A stretch of DNA of 62,636 nt. Source: a bacterium CG_4_9_14_3_um_filter_65_15 (GTDB lineage: Bacteria; Krumholzibacteriota; Krumholzibacteriia; LZORAL124-64-63). Shown here in pieces: positions 24,629 to 33,596 of the stretch (position 1 is its first letter; every line of letters starts with the position of its first letter). The notes under the pieces were generated by a model, which searched no databases, had not been told where the DNA came from, and was given only the letters and a program-made list of their open reading frames with translations. Location of the stretch: the NCBI GenBank assembly GCA_002790835.1, contig PFVX01000007.1, positions 1 to 62,636 on the forward strand, in the 5' to 3' direction. The position numbers and the translations under genes were made by a program.

Positions 24629-27094
24629 TTACCCCGCGGGGGTCTTGATCCCGGTCTGGGGCTCGCACTTGAAAGTCAGCTTGCCCCCTTCGAAGTCGAT
24701 GACCAGCTGACTGTTGCTGGTGATCTGCCCCCGCAGCAACTTTTCACTCATCGGATCCTCCACGTACTTCTGGATCGCCCGCCGCAGGGGCCGGGCACCG
24801 AGCTGCGGGTCAAAACCCACTCCGCACAGGAAGTCCTTGCAGGCGGCGGTGAAGTCGAAGTTGATCTCCAGGTTCTGCAACCGATCGCTCACATCGTTCA
24901 GCAGGATGTCGACGATGCGCGTGATGTCAGCCCGGCTGAGGCTGTTGAAGGTGATGATCTCGTCGATGCGGTTGAGGAACTCGGGGCTGAAGGTCTTGCG
25001 CAAGTCCGACTCGATGTTGCCCTGGGCCCGCTGCTGCTTGTGGGCGACCTCGTCCGAGCCGAACCCGACTCCCCGGACCTCATGCGTCCGGCGGCTGCCC
25101 ACGTTGCTGGTCATGATCAGGACCGCATTGCGGAAGTCGACGGTCCGGCCGAAGCTGTCGGTCAGCTGGCCGTCGTCCAGAACCTGCAGCAGGATGTTGT
25201 AGACGTCCGGGTGGGCCTTCTCGATCTCGTCCAGGAGGATGACCGAATAGGGTTTGCGCCGGACCTTCTCCGTCAACATGCCACCCTCGTCGTAACCCAC
25301 GTATCCCGGAGGGGCGCCCACCAGGCGGCTGACCGAGTGCTTCTCCATGTATTCGGACATGTCCACGCGGATCAGCGAAGCCTGGTCACCGAACAGGAAT
25401 TCCGTCAGGCGCCGTGCCACCTCGGTCTTGCCCACCCCGCTGGGGCCCAGGAAGATGAACGATCCGATGGGACGGCGGGGGTCGCGCAGGCCCGCACGGT
25501 TGCGGCGAATGCATTTGGAGACTGCTGACAGCGCCGCATCCTGACCGATGACCCACCGGCCCAGCTCCTCCTCCATGCGCAGCAGCTTGTCCGTTTCCTC
25601 CTCCTCGACCTCCGACACGGGAATACCCGTGATGTCCGCGATAACCTCGCAGATCAGCACCGGAGTAACCGATGACTGGGGCTCGGCGATTCCGCCGGTC
25701 AGGTCGGATCTGAGATCGTGGAGCTTCTGCTTCAGCTCCTTCTCCTCATCGCGGAACGCAGCGGCCTTTTCGAACTCCTGAGCCTGGATGGCCGCCTCCT
25801 TCTCCCCGATGACCTCCTCGATGCGCTGCTCCAGTTCCTGGAGGTCGGGCGGCACCACGGTCATGCTGAGTCGGGCGCGGCTGCCGGCCTCGTCGATGAT
25901 GTCGATGGCCTTGTCCGGCAGGGCGCGGCCGGAGATATAGCGGTTGGAAAGGTAAACGGCCGCCCGGATCGCCTCGTCGGTGTAGACCACCTTGTGGTGC
26001 TGCTCGTATTTGTCCTTGAGCCCGAACAGGATCTCCACGGTCTCCGGTTCGCTGGGCGGGTTGACCATCACGGGCTGGAAACGCCGTTCCAGGGCCCCGT
26101 CCTTCTCGATGTACTTGCGGTACTCGTCCATCGTGGTCGCACCGACGCATTGGATCTCACCGCGGCTCAGCGCCGGCTTGAGCATGTTGCTGGCGTCGAT
26201 GGCGCCCTCGGCGCCCCCGGCGCCGACGATGGTGTGCAATTCGTCGATGAAGAGGATCACGTCGGGATTCTCACGAATCTCGGCCATGATCTGCTTGAGC
26301 CGCTCCTCGAACTGTCCGCGGTACTTGGTGCCGGCCACGACGCTGGCCAGGTCGAGGGTGAAGATCTCCTTGCCCCGCAACAACCCGGGCACATCGCCCT
26401 CGACGATCCGGGTGGCGAAACCCTCCACGATGGCGGTCTTGCCGACACCCGGTTCACCGATGAGCACCGGATTGTTCTTCTTGCGGCGGCTGAGAATCTG
26501 GATGCACCGGTCGATTTCCCGGGCGCGTCCGATGGTGGGGTCGAGCTTTCCGTCCCGGGCCATCTCGGTCATGTTGCGACCGAACTGTTCCAGGATGGAG
26601 CCTTCCTTCTTGGCTGCCTTCTTGCGCCCGCCGAGACTCAGCCGGGCTCGGCCGTCGCCCCCGCCCAGGGCCTTCATGACCTCGCGCTTGACGCCCTCGT
26701 GATCGACGCCGAGTTCTCCGAGGACCCGCGCGGCGACTCCCTCGCCCTCGCGGATCAGCGCCAACAGCAGATGCTCGGTGCCCACGTAGTTGTGGTTGTG
26801 CAGGCGGGCCTCGTCGATGGAAAGTTCCAGGACCTTCTTGGCGCGGGGAGTGAACGGGATCTCCCCGATGCTCACCGGTCCCATGGGCGCGGTGACGGAG
26901 TCCTCGACCGCCTTCTGCAGGCGCTCGAAATCCACGTTCATCTTGCGCAGGACGTTGGCGGCAACGCCCTCTCCCTCATGGATGATCCCGAGCAGGAGGT
27001 GCTCGGTTCCGATGTAGTCATGCTGCAGACGTCCGGCCTCGTCCCTGGCCAAAAAAAGGACCTTGCGCACACGCTGGGTGAATCGGTCATTCAT
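24629..27094 (-). CDS. clpC: ClpC-type AAA+ unfoldase of the Clp protease
   Basis: ClpC unfolds substrates for ClpP. Domains in order: double Clp-N repeat (about 1-145), first AAA module with Walker A GEPGVGKTA (about 210), a middle domain with a UVR segment (about 420-455), and second AAA module with GPSGVGKTE (about 545). Both GTEH sites of the N-domain that bind phospho-arginine in Bacillus (Glu31 and Glu107 here) are kept. ATG 27094 follows GGAGG; the longer frame to 27214 is discarded. At 821 residues it is full length. A 232-bp gap to mcsB with a TATATT box suggests its own promoter. ClpP is not in the window. Confidence 0.95.
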   Translation of the reverse strand: MNDRFTQRVRKVLFLARDEAGRLQHDYIGTEHLLLGIIHEGEGVAANVLRKMNVDFERLQKAVEDSVTAPMGPVSIGEIPFTPRAKKVLELSIDEARLHNHNYVGTEHLLLALIREGEGVAARVLGELGVDHEGVKREVMKALGGGDGRARLSLGGRKKAAKKEGSILEQFGRNMTEMARDGKLDPTIGRAREIDRCIQILSRRKKNNPVLIGEPGVGKTAIVEGFATRIVEGDVPGLLRGKEIFTLDLASVVAGTKYRGQFEERLKQIMAEIRENPDVILFIDELHTIVGAGGAEGAIDASNMLKPALSRGEIQCVGATTMDEYRKYIEKDGALERRFQPVMVNPPSEPETVEILFGLKDKYEQHHKVVYTDEAIRAAVYLSNRYISGRALPDKAIDIIDEAGSRARLSMTVVPPDLQELEQRIEEVIGEKEAAIQAQEFEKAAAFRDEEKELKQKLHDLRSDLTGGIAEPQSSVTPVLICEVIADITGIPVSEVEEEETDKLLRMEEELGRWVIGQDAALSAVSKCIRRNRAGLRDPRRPIGSFIFLGPSGVGKTEVARRLTEFLFGDQASLIRVDMSEYMEKHSVSRLVGAPPGYVGYDEGGMLTEKVRRKPYSVILLDEIEKAHPDVYNILLQVLDDGQLTDSFGRTVDFRNAVLIMTSNVGSRRTHEVRGVGFGSDEVAHKQQRAQGNIESDLRKTFSPEFLNRIDEIITFNSLSRADITRIVDILLNDVSDRLQNLEINFDFTAACKDFLCGVGFDPQLGARPLRRAIQKYVEDPMSEKLLRGQITSNSQLVIDFEGGKLTFKCEPQTGIKTPAG

Positions 27095-27326: not shown

Positions 27327-28391
27327 TCAGGGACCGGGAACCGACAGGATCTCCCGGAACAGCGCGGCTCGGGCCGCCATCAGTTCCTTTCCCTGCAGAT
27401 TCTCGGGACAGGACAGGGACAAATGCCCACCCTGTTGGAAGACGAGCAGGCGGTTCAGGTCCTCCAAGCGGACATCCGGTAGGATGCCCAAACCGTGGCC
27501 AAGACGCAGATTCGACAGAAGGTCGAAGCCCTCCTGGAGGGTCATCAAGCGGGCATGACGGCAAGTGGCCAAAGAGCGATGGGCGAGATCCTCCATGGCC
27601 ACAGGATCGCCATCGTAGAGTTGATCCCGCGCCGTCCGTTCGTGATGGATGATCTTGCCGACATGCAGGGCATAATCCTCCACAGCCTCATCTTCGCTCC
27701 GTCCCAGGGTCACCAGGTTGGAAATCAGGAACAGGCAACCCCGCACCGAACCCGAGCGTCCGGCCAGGCCGCGCACGGCGAACTGGAGTTGGCGCAAGGC
27801 GTTCACGATGCGTCCGATCTCCCCGGCCATGACCAGTCCGGGCAGGTGCAGCAGGCTGGTCAGCCGCAAGCCGGTGCCCACCCGCGTGGGGCATGCAGTG
27901 AGGTAGCCGATCTCTTCGCTGAACGCGAATTCCAGGCGCCCATCCAGGACGCTCTCCAGTTCCAGGGCCGCGGCAACTGCCCCCGGCGCTGCGAAACCGC
28001 CGCGCCAGGCCTTGATCCGCAAATGGTCTTCCTCGTTGACCACCACCGCACGGCCCAGGGCGGGTTCCAGGATCAGCCCCGCACCCAGGGGTTGATGGGC
28101 GACAGCCAGGGTGATCAGGCCTTTCTCCTGCAGGCAGCAGCGGAGCGGTAGCGACACCTCTTCCAGCTTCAGCCAGTTGCCGGTGGCCAGTTCGGCGTTT
28201 CCCTCGAGCCCGCGGACAACTTCCCCCAGGATCGTGCGCCGCTCCACTTCCGAAGCCCGGTCCGGGAAAGGGAAGGCCCACAAACTGCGGGCCAGGGCGG
28301 CTTCGGTGAGCAGGACGACATCAGGGTCGAACGCACCCGGGGCCTGCCAGGGAAGAGCCGTCCTGAGCCACTGCGGTCGATCATCCGCCAT
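27327..28391 (-). CDS. mcsB: McsB-like protein-arginine kinase with altered active site
   Basis: McsB phosphorylates arginines and so marks proteins for ClpCP. The 354-residue length, the nucleotide-handling VVNEEDHLRI (about 117-126), the CPTRVGTGLR loop with Cys167 and Arg176, and the C-terminal half match the family. However, the phosphagen-kinase signature SSRxRLARN is replaced by LTEAALARSL (28-37), losing two ATP-phosphate arginines, and the Glu of the RGxxGE loop is Arg212. The reading frame is clean, so these are substitutions and not a frameshift. It may be a pseudokinase or a reshaped enzyme. It overlaps mcsA by 11 bp. Confidence 0.85.
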   Translation of the reverse strand: MADDRPQWLRTALPWQAPGAFDPDVVLLTEAALARSLWAFPFPDRASEVERRTILGEVVRGLEGNAELATGNWLKLEEVSLPLRCCLQEKGLITLAVAHQPLGAGLILEPALGRAVVVNEEDHLRIKAWRGGFAAPGAVAAALELESVLDGRLEFAFSEEIGYLTACPTRVGTGLRLTSLLHLPGLVMAGEIGRIVNALRQLQFAVRGLAGRSGSVRGCLFLISNLVTLGRSEDEAVEDYALHVGKIIHHERTARDQLYDGDPVAMEDLAHRSLATCRHARLMTLQEGFDLLSNLRLGHGLGILPDVRLEDLNRLLVFQQGGHLSLSCPENLQGKELMAARAALFREILSVPGP

Positions 28392-28950
28392 GATCGTCCT
28401 CCTGATCGGGCCGAACCTGGAGAATCCGCAACTGGTCCCTCAACCGGGCGGCTTCCTCGAATTTTTCGCCTGCGATCGCCTTTTCCAGGGCGACCCGCAG
28501 GCGCGACACCTCGACCAGGCGCATGCTGCCGCCGGACCGGGATCCCGGAGCGCGTCCCATGTGCGTGGCATGGCGGTGAAAGGCCGCCAGCAGGGGCTGC
28601 AGGCGAAGGCGAAACGCGTTGTAACACCGCGCGCACCCGAGTTTCCCCGTGTCCTGGAAATCCGCCCAGCTTGTCCCGCAATGCGAACAGGAGACCGCAG
28701 GATCGGGCCCGGCCGCCTCGGCGGCGGACGACCCCAGGAACCTCAGCATGGAATCGAAGGCGTCCCCGGGTACCTCGTCCGCCGGGGGCACATCATCCTT
28801 GGCAAAGGATCCCGAGGCGATCGCATCCAGTCGCCGCCATTGCTCAGCATCGGCGCACTCGGAGCACAGCCAAAGGTCCCGGTTGGCCTTGCCGTCCATT
28901 TCCACCAGATGGACGGTGGCTTCCCGGTTGCTGCAGTGCTGGCATTTCAT
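28381..28950 (-). CDS. mcsA: McsA-like zinc-binding adaptor with UVR domain
   Basis: McsA activates McsB and tethers it to ClpC. All four CxxC zinc motifs are kept: CQHC at residues 3-6, CSEC at about 29-32, CSHC at about 78-81, CARC at about 95-98. The UVR motif (LRVALEKAIAGEKFEEAARLRDQLR region) lies near the C-terminus. The length of 189 fits. In Firmicutes the gene follows ctsR; here it follows lolD with 15 bp between, and ctsR is absent. It is followed by mcsB (11-bp overlap). Confidence 0.9.
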   Translation of the reverse strand: MKCQHCSNREATVHLVEMDGKANRDLWLCSECADAEQWRRLDAIASGSFAKDDVPPADEVPGDAFDSMLRFLGSSAAEAAGPDPAVSCSHCGTSWADFQDTGKLGCARCYNAFRLRLQPLLAAFHRHATHMGRAPGSRSGGSMRLVEVSRLRVALEKAIAGEKFEEAARLRDQLRILQVRPDQEDDHGG

Positions 28951-32470: not shown

Positions 32471-33596
32471 TCAGGGTCCGGTTTGCTGTTTGGTCTTGGC
32501 TCCCAGCCAGCGCAGATATGCGTCGATGAATCCGTCCAGATCGCCGTCCAGAACCCCGGTGGAGTTTCCGGTTTCGAACTCCGTCCGGTGGTCCTTCACC
32601 TTGGTGTAGGGCTGCAGCACGTAGGAACGGATCTGGCTGCCCCAGGCATTCTCCATCTTCTCGGCCTCGATGGCGTCGCGTTCCTTCTGCCGCTGCAGGA
32701 TGATCAACTGGTAGAGTTTGGCCCGCAGCATGGTCATGGCGCTCTCGCGGTTGCGATGCTGGCTGCGCTCGCTCTGACAGGACACGACCGTCCCGGTGGG
32801 CTCGTGGGTGATCCGCACGGCGCTGTCCGTCTTGTTCACGTGCTGTCCGCCCGCCCCCTGGGCCCGGAAGGTGTCGATGCGCAGGTCGGCGGTGTTGATC
32901 TCCACTTCCACATCGTCATCCACCAGGGGATAGACGTATACCGAGGCGAAACTCGTGTGCCGTCGGCTTTGGGTGTCGAAGGGCGAGATCCTGACCAGGC
33001 GGTGCACACCCGTCTCGCTCTTCAGGTAACCGTAAGCGAAGGAGTGGTCGATTTCCAGCACCGCGGTCTTGATCCCCGCCTCGTCCCCGGGCTGAATTTC
33101 GAGGGTCTTGAACTTCATTCCGCTGCGCTCGAAGTAGCGCGTGTACATGCGCATGAGCATCTGCGCCCAGTCGGCGCTCTCGGTGCCGCCGGCGCCGGGA
33201 TGGATCTCCATCACCGCTCCACGCCCGTCGTCCACGTCGCTGAGCAGAAACTGGAAATCCAGCTTCTCCACAGCCTCTTCCAGGGCGACAAGCCCCTCAC
33301 GGACCTCGGCCGCGGATTCCTCATCGTCCTCGGCTATCGCCATCTCGGCCAGCAACTCCAGGTCTTCGGCCATGGCCGAGGCGCGGTCCAGGGGATCGAT
33401 CCACTGCTTGAGGGAACGGACCTGGCGGACCACCCGGTTCGCCTCCTCCTGGTCATTCCAGAACTCGGGATCCGCCTGACTGGCCTCGCAGGCGGCCAGC
33501 TTCTTCACCAGGCTGGAATAGTCAAAGACCCTCCTTGAGGGAGGCGATGGTCTGCCGGGCCGCTTCGATCCTATCGCGGGCTTCCTTCACGATCAT
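32471..33596 (-). CDS. prfB: peptide chain release factor 2, with programmed +1 frameshift
   Basis: RF2 reads UGA and UAA stops. The first frame starts at ATG 33596 (24 codons) and stops at an in-frame TGA (33524-33522) inside CTT-TGA-C. Skipping one T continues in the main frame as Asp-Tyr-Ser-Ser-Leu-Val, giving 374 residues. The recognition tripeptide Ser-Pro-Phe (RISPFDTQSRRHTSF) and the catalytic GGQ (AQGAGGQHVNKT) are present. The ATG overlaps the coaE stop (ATGA). An annotation that ignores the frameshift would start falsely at GTG 33508. Confidence 0.95.
33522..33536 (-). promoter_or_regulatory. RF2 autoregulatory frameshift site
   Basis: A Shine-Dalgarno-like AAGGAGG (33536-33530) sits 2 nt before CTT (33527-33525), followed by the in-frame TGA and C. 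This is the known RF2 feedback arrangement: low RF2 stalls at UGA and favours the +1 slip on CUU. Confidence 0.95.

Follow-up and report, generated by a model that had tools for sequence, protein, structure and literature searches.

Organization of the mcsA-mcsB-clpC locus

The stretch of DNA analysed here (the window) covers 62,636 nucleotides of contig PFVX01000007.1 from an uncultured bacterium of the phylum Krumholzibacteriota, class Krumholzibacteriia. On its minus strand the genes mcsA, mcsB and clpC follow one another in this order, as in operons of the McsB family. The mcsB-like gene, which we predict to encode a pseudokinase, lies at positions 27327-28391 (minus strand); it starts with ATG and runs for 354 codons uninterrupted by stops. 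The mcsA gene (28381-28950, minus strand, 189 amino acids) overlaps the start of mcsB by 11 nucleotides, and both zinc fingers and the UVR motif of its product are intact. The clpC gene (24629-27094, minus strand) has its ATG at 27094, and both GTEH sites of the ClpC N-domain are kept (26999-27010 and 26771-26782). Elsewhere in the window, also on the minus strand, prfB (release factor 2) carries an apparent classical +1 programmed frameshift, CTT TGA C at 33527-33521. An ATG at 33596 is in frame to this sequence and the main open reading frame, 33508-32471, carries on in the +1 frame.

McsB normally tags damaged proteins by arginine phosphorylation. The window protein matches PF00217 with 142 bits, and solved McsB structures could be aligned over its residues 14-350 (E 2e-54 to 8wtb). 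An AlphaFold2 model was obtained with a pLDDT of 94.7 and a pTM of 0.92, and it superposed on Geobacillus McsB (6fh3) with a TM-score of 0.93. Full-length homology and fold thus place the protein by descent in the McsB family, but its scores of 239-245 bits with the NCBIfam equivalog models of McsB are below the curated cut-offs of 500 and 385. A PF00217 profile search of the 3.39-Mb genome returned no phosphagen-kinase domain besides this one; no second, functional McsB was thus found elsewhere in the genome. A protein scan of genome contigs gave five loci in total, one of them from a same-genus relative on contig JALUJS010000225.1.

Active-site and allosteric residues

Residues are numbered as in B. 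subtilis McsB, from its alignment with the window protein. An earlier note made from the sequence alone had reported that the signature SSRxRLARN reads LTEAALARSL at residues 28-37, with two arginines gone. The alignment confirmed this: in the degenerate motif (28281-28310, minus strand), Glu30 occupies the position of R29, Ala32 that of R31, and R34 is kept as Arg35. The alignment of the motif is gapless with R34 in register, so that a supply of the arginines from shifted positions, which the note had envisaged, was ruled out. The note was also right about the glutamate of the RGxxGE loop. In the lid loop, residues 207-217 (RGLAGRSGSVR; 27741-27773, minus strand), Arg207 is kept and E212 is replaced by Arg212.

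Three further replacements had been missed. Asn170 is Arg170 (27882-27884, minus strand), and the allosteric phospho-arginine site R337-D338, defined in PMC8370763 and PMC7235348, is Leu337-Met338 (27378-27383, minus strand). On the other hand, the NEEDHLR block at residues 119-125 (28017-28037, minus strand), with the catalytic Glu121 and R125, is kept, as are R34, R176, R207 and the catalytic cysteine, Cys167 (27891-27893, minus strand).

B. subtilis McsB shows no kinase activity in a radioactive assay once any one of R29, R31, R34, R125, R176, R207 and R337 is changed to Lys (PMC7235348). Three of these seven arginines, R29, R31 and R337, are absent from the window protein, and none is replaced by Lys. 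The set expected of an active protein-arginine kinase is therefore incomplete, and the Glu, Ala and Leu found in its place are, by analogy, a more drastic change than the single R-to-K knockouts. In the transition state of arginine kinase, Arg124 and Arg126 hold the nucleotide and are in contact with both the donor oxygen and the phosphoryl being transferred, Glu225, Glu314 and Cys271 polarise the guanidinium, and Asn274 sits beside that phosphoryl (PMC11075012). Equating Arg124/Arg126 with R29/R31 and Asn274 with N170 relies on shared motifs (SSRxR, NEEDHxR, CPTNxGT, RGxxGE) and not on a structural superposition of the active site. Within the guanidinium-binding and catalytic set, Glu121 and Cys167 are present and Glu212 is Arg; Cys167 varies among the congeners. 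Overall, residues of nucleotide binding and catalysis have been lost within a conserved and intact gene, the pattern that marks a pseudokinase.

Distribution of the losses among McsB sequences

We gathered 106 McsB sequences, two Bacilli references included; two short ones were left out of the tree, which therefore holds 104. A canonical set of 72 sequences comprised the Krumholzibacteriota outside two families (f1, to which the window belongs, and f4), sequences of a second phylum to which Eisenbacteria contigs had led, and both references. Both R29 and R31 are present in all 70 sequences of this set that could be read at these positions. E121, R125, C167, N170, R176, R207 and E212 are each found in at least 71 of the 72, and where readable R29, R31, R34, R125, R176, R207, C167, N170 and E212 show no exception. 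All substantive exceptions to the conservation of catalytic residues fall in f1 and f4.

In the genus of the window (g1, four genomes), the position of R29 is E, E, G or S and that of R31 is A, A, V or A; all four proteins have Arg170. The natural loss of McsB catalytic residues is thus genus-wide. Because R29 and R31 are absent from all four genomes and invariant in the 70 readable sequences outside f1 and f4, their loss is attributable neither to chance nor to error, and a sequencing or assembly fault is ruled out by the agreement of four independent genomes. The alignment proposed in the earlier note as a check of a lineage-wide loss therefore showed one that spans the genus and does not extend across the wider lineage. 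Of the alignment columns with a conservation of 85% or more across 39 further McsB sequences, only R29, R31, N170 and a class-specific arginine (A104 in the window) are lost in all four congeners, and no such column is lost in all four within the dimerisation domain. The replacement of E212, given weight in the earlier note, was downgraded as a key mark since this position also varies in sister genera that retain R29 and R31.

Two other groups of sequences deserve mention. Degenerate McsB proteins occur a second time, and independently, in family f4 (L047, L049, L050 and L046, from G037, G041, G049 and G045). R29/R31 are kept and R125/R176/R207 lost in G041 and G037, and R29/R31 are lost in G049 and G045; mcsB lies between mcsA and clpC in the three genomes checked for synteny (G037, G041, G049). 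Genome G005 encodes an extremely divergent McsB-like protein (L048, branch length 3.9) with R31 changed to Asp, C167 to Glu and N170 to Arg. Its mcsA match is limited to the C-terminal half, and its clpC is intact.

Variation within the family of the window

The tree shows a clade of 23 f1 sequences, most of which have Ser at position 167, and Ser is the commonest state at this position in the family. Other losses in the clade differ by genus: R29/R31 in g1, R176 in g7, and R207/E212 in part of g12. The earlier note had listed Cys167, Arg176 and the NEEDH block as kept. All are indeed present, but Cys167 turned out to be uninformative, the four congeners carrying C, H, R and Y. With His, Arg and Tyr in the congeners and mostly Ser in the clade, the Cys of the window has probably come back by chance at a site under no constraint, and it was discarded as evidence for kinase activity. 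C167S is the classical 'kinase inactive' mutant of B. subtilis McsB (PMC7235348).

Each of the 38 f1 genomes has either both McsA and McsB or neither. Both genes are missing from eight of them, distributed over four genera (g5, g6, g11, g14); these genomes (G007, G008, G013, G016, G017, G022, G025 and G031) have ClpC matches. Where the ClpC N-domain was readable, both GTEH sites are kept in six of seven. The note had put forward the two ClpC sites as phospho-arginine sites. They are there, but since genera lacking McsA and McsB retain them as well, their retention says nothing about arginine phosphorylation, and we rejected them as evidence for such signalling.

Arginine phosphatase and CtsR

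The P-loop of YwlE-type arginine phosphatases is CxGNTCRSP. No YwlE-type phosphatase with this P-loop was found in the window's own genome, which is 95% complete; its only two low-molecular-weight phosphatase matches are ArsC-like genes inside an ars cluster. This cluster (L061, L062; contig C65 of G000) also encodes an ArsR-like protein, a methyltransferase and a transporter-like ORF, and one of the ArsC genes seems to have a broken or shifted frame. In G002 and G003, too, the search turned up genes of ArsC type only. A YwlE-like ortholog is nevertheless present in many members of f1.

The P-loop Thr marks the phospho-arginine type in the YwlE phosphatase (PMC8001253). It is found in the YwlE-like P-loop of most families with canonical McsB, whereas three of the four f4 genomes (G037, G041, G049) have Ile instead. 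A strict link between kinase loss and a Thr-to-Ile switch was rejected, as exceptions on both sides leave only a trend.

A profile search found no CtsR in the window's own genome. In B. subtilis, mcsB and ctsR are adjacent. A control genome named Bacillus subtilis gave no match for PF00217 or CtsR; because the operon may be absent or masked in that genome, the missing match should not be taken to mean that the search is insensitive.

Retention of mcsB under selection

The mcsB reading frame is intact in all four congeners, whose proteins share 49-70% identity. Simple Nei-Gojobori counts, which give rough values in such GC-rich genes, yielded dN/dS of 0.23-0.54 within the genus as compared to 0.08-0.36 in sister genera. 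The gene is therefore not evolving neutrally but under purifying selection. The dimerisation and regulatory domain (residues 251-350; 27342-27641, minus strand) includes R255, R272, R281 and R341, which together with R86 are needed for stimulation by McsA in B. subtilis (PMC7235348). These four arginines are kept in all four genomes; R86 is not kept, nor is it conserved in the canonical set.

The conservation of the active-site loops was compared with that of the whole kinase domain. Pairs of sequences keeping all six catalytic residues checked show an excess of 7-28 points in the loops (12-28 points in all but the closest of these pairs). The excess is 0-14 points in the genus of the window, 4-17 points in other eroded f1 genera, and -5 points in an f4 pair. 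These values suggest that the fold and the partner of McsB are kept under selection and that the catalytic site is partly released.

A functionless gene on its way to loss, as may have happened in g5, g6, g11 and g14, is an unlikely explanation. Complete loss of mcsA and mcsB in eight of 38 genomes, a dN/dS somewhat above that of several sister genera and the loosened active site would all fit it. However, intact frames at such divergence, the dN/dS values themselves, co-retention of McsA and a dimerisation domain with no near-invariant column lost throughout the genus argue against mere decay.

Arg170 and Arg212 as candidate replacements

Arg170 is shared by the four congeners and by two distant degenerate proteins, those of G005 and G049. 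Both this position and that of R31 could be read in 103 sequences: Arg170 is found in six of the seven that lack R31 and in none of the 96 that have it. This would be expected of a rewired kinase, in which Arg170 and Arg212 replace R29 and R31 as a relocated phosphate clamp, perhaps with a different substrate. The location of the arginine-kinase equivalent of residue 170, beside the transferred phosphoryl (PMC11075012), and the retention of R125, R176, R207 and Glu121 also speak for such a rewiring. Yet the striking raw count reduces to three independent pairs on supported branches of the tree, two of them concordant (sign test p 0.5), and the covariation was not retained as a strong signal. 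Moreover, position 212 is Pro in the congener G001, where R125 and R207 are lost too, the two other carriers of Arg170 are strongly degenerate, and constraint on the active site has loosened rather than re-tightened. A rewired kinase is hence improbable. It is similarly doubtful, and if anything a little more so, that a clamp moved to Arg170/Arg212 would provide a new phosphotransfer or phosphate-sensing activity reaching ClpC through McsA. As between the scaffold and the changed chemistry that the earlier note had offered as alternatives, the former is well supported and the latter lacks statistical support.

McsB as a putative pseudokinase adaptor of ClpC

With a probability of roughly 0.6, we favor the view that the window McsB is a pseudokinase retained to serve, bound to McsA, as an adaptor of ClpC, at a late stage in the stepwise decay of arginine phosphorylation. 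The loss of arginines essential in B. subtilis, the Ser167 background, the failure to find a YwlE-type phosphatase in the genome, and the retention of McsA, of the McsA-responsive arginines and of the fold support this view. Replacement of the ATP-phosphate arginines R29/R31 by Glu and Ala, of the guanidinium-binding Glu212 by Arg and of the allosteric pocket R337/D338 by Leu and Met would have abolished kinase activity. The protein would still fold, dimerise and bind the zinc-finger protein McsA, and the McsA-McsB complex would serve the ClpC encoded next door as an adaptor or regulator that needs no phosphorylation. Lack of kinase activity, dimerisation, McsA binding and adaptor function are the most likely properties of the protein as judged from its sequence. 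Within the family, decay may have begun with a Cys167-to-Ser change in the ancestor of most genera. It would have continued with the loss of other catalytic residues genus by genus as the phosphatase changed or disappeared, and ended, in several genera, with mcsA and mcsB being dropped together and clpC kept.

Some features temper the pseudokinase view. The sequence still has R34, R125, R176 and R207 as well as the catalytic Glu and Cys, two new active-site arginines (170 and 212) could partly compensate, and the B. subtilis loss-of-function data are carried over to a protein with only about 34% identity. Besides, most of the ClpC-adaptor activity of B. subtilis McsB needs its kinase activity (PMC5506225); for this reason adaptor function without kinase activity is not what one would expect by default, and in that organism the enzymatic role is not easily told apart from the adaptor role. 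A normal kinase tolerating Glu30, Ala32 and the other changes would agree with four essential arginines, the NEEDH block, Cys167 and the predicted fold, but it is very improbable given that any one of R29K, R31K and R337K is enough to abolish activity in B. subtilis (PMC7235348), that an acidic residue stands at the phosphate-binding site and that no YwlE-type phosphatase was found in the genome to reverse the phosphorylation.

The pseudokinase proposed here can be compared with known systems. It shares with McsB of B. subtilis and Geobacillus (PF00217, NCBIfam NF053707) the fold, the length, the dimerisation domain, the gene order, the NEEDH block and R34, R125, R176 and R207. It differs from them by replacements at R29, R31, N170, E212, R337 and D338 and by scores below the curated McsB cut-offs, and neither CtsR nor a YwlE-type phosphatase was found in its genome. 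There is also a likeness to the B. subtilis C167S laboratory mutant, whose catalysis is compromised and which may still deliver substrates: MgsR has a lower stability in cells with C167S than in cells lacking McsB, and a kinase-independent adaptor role has been proposed (PMC7235348). Sister genera carry Ser167 naturally, whereas in the window C167 itself is present, and several other residues have been lost in nature, with the losses fixed in the genus. Eukaryotic and bacterial Ser/Thr pseudokinases have similarly lost nucleotide-binding and catalytic residues with fold and partners kept, but their fold is unrelated to the phosphagen-kinase-type catalytic domain of McsB. In the literature searched, outside which most subscription papers fall, we found no description of a natural McsB pseudokinase.

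A natural lineage that sheds catalytic residues stepwise and keeps McsA, ClpC and the surfaces of the complex would make a kinase-independent role of McsB directly testable. The f1 series may also offer intermediates in the dismantling of a protein-degradation tagging system.
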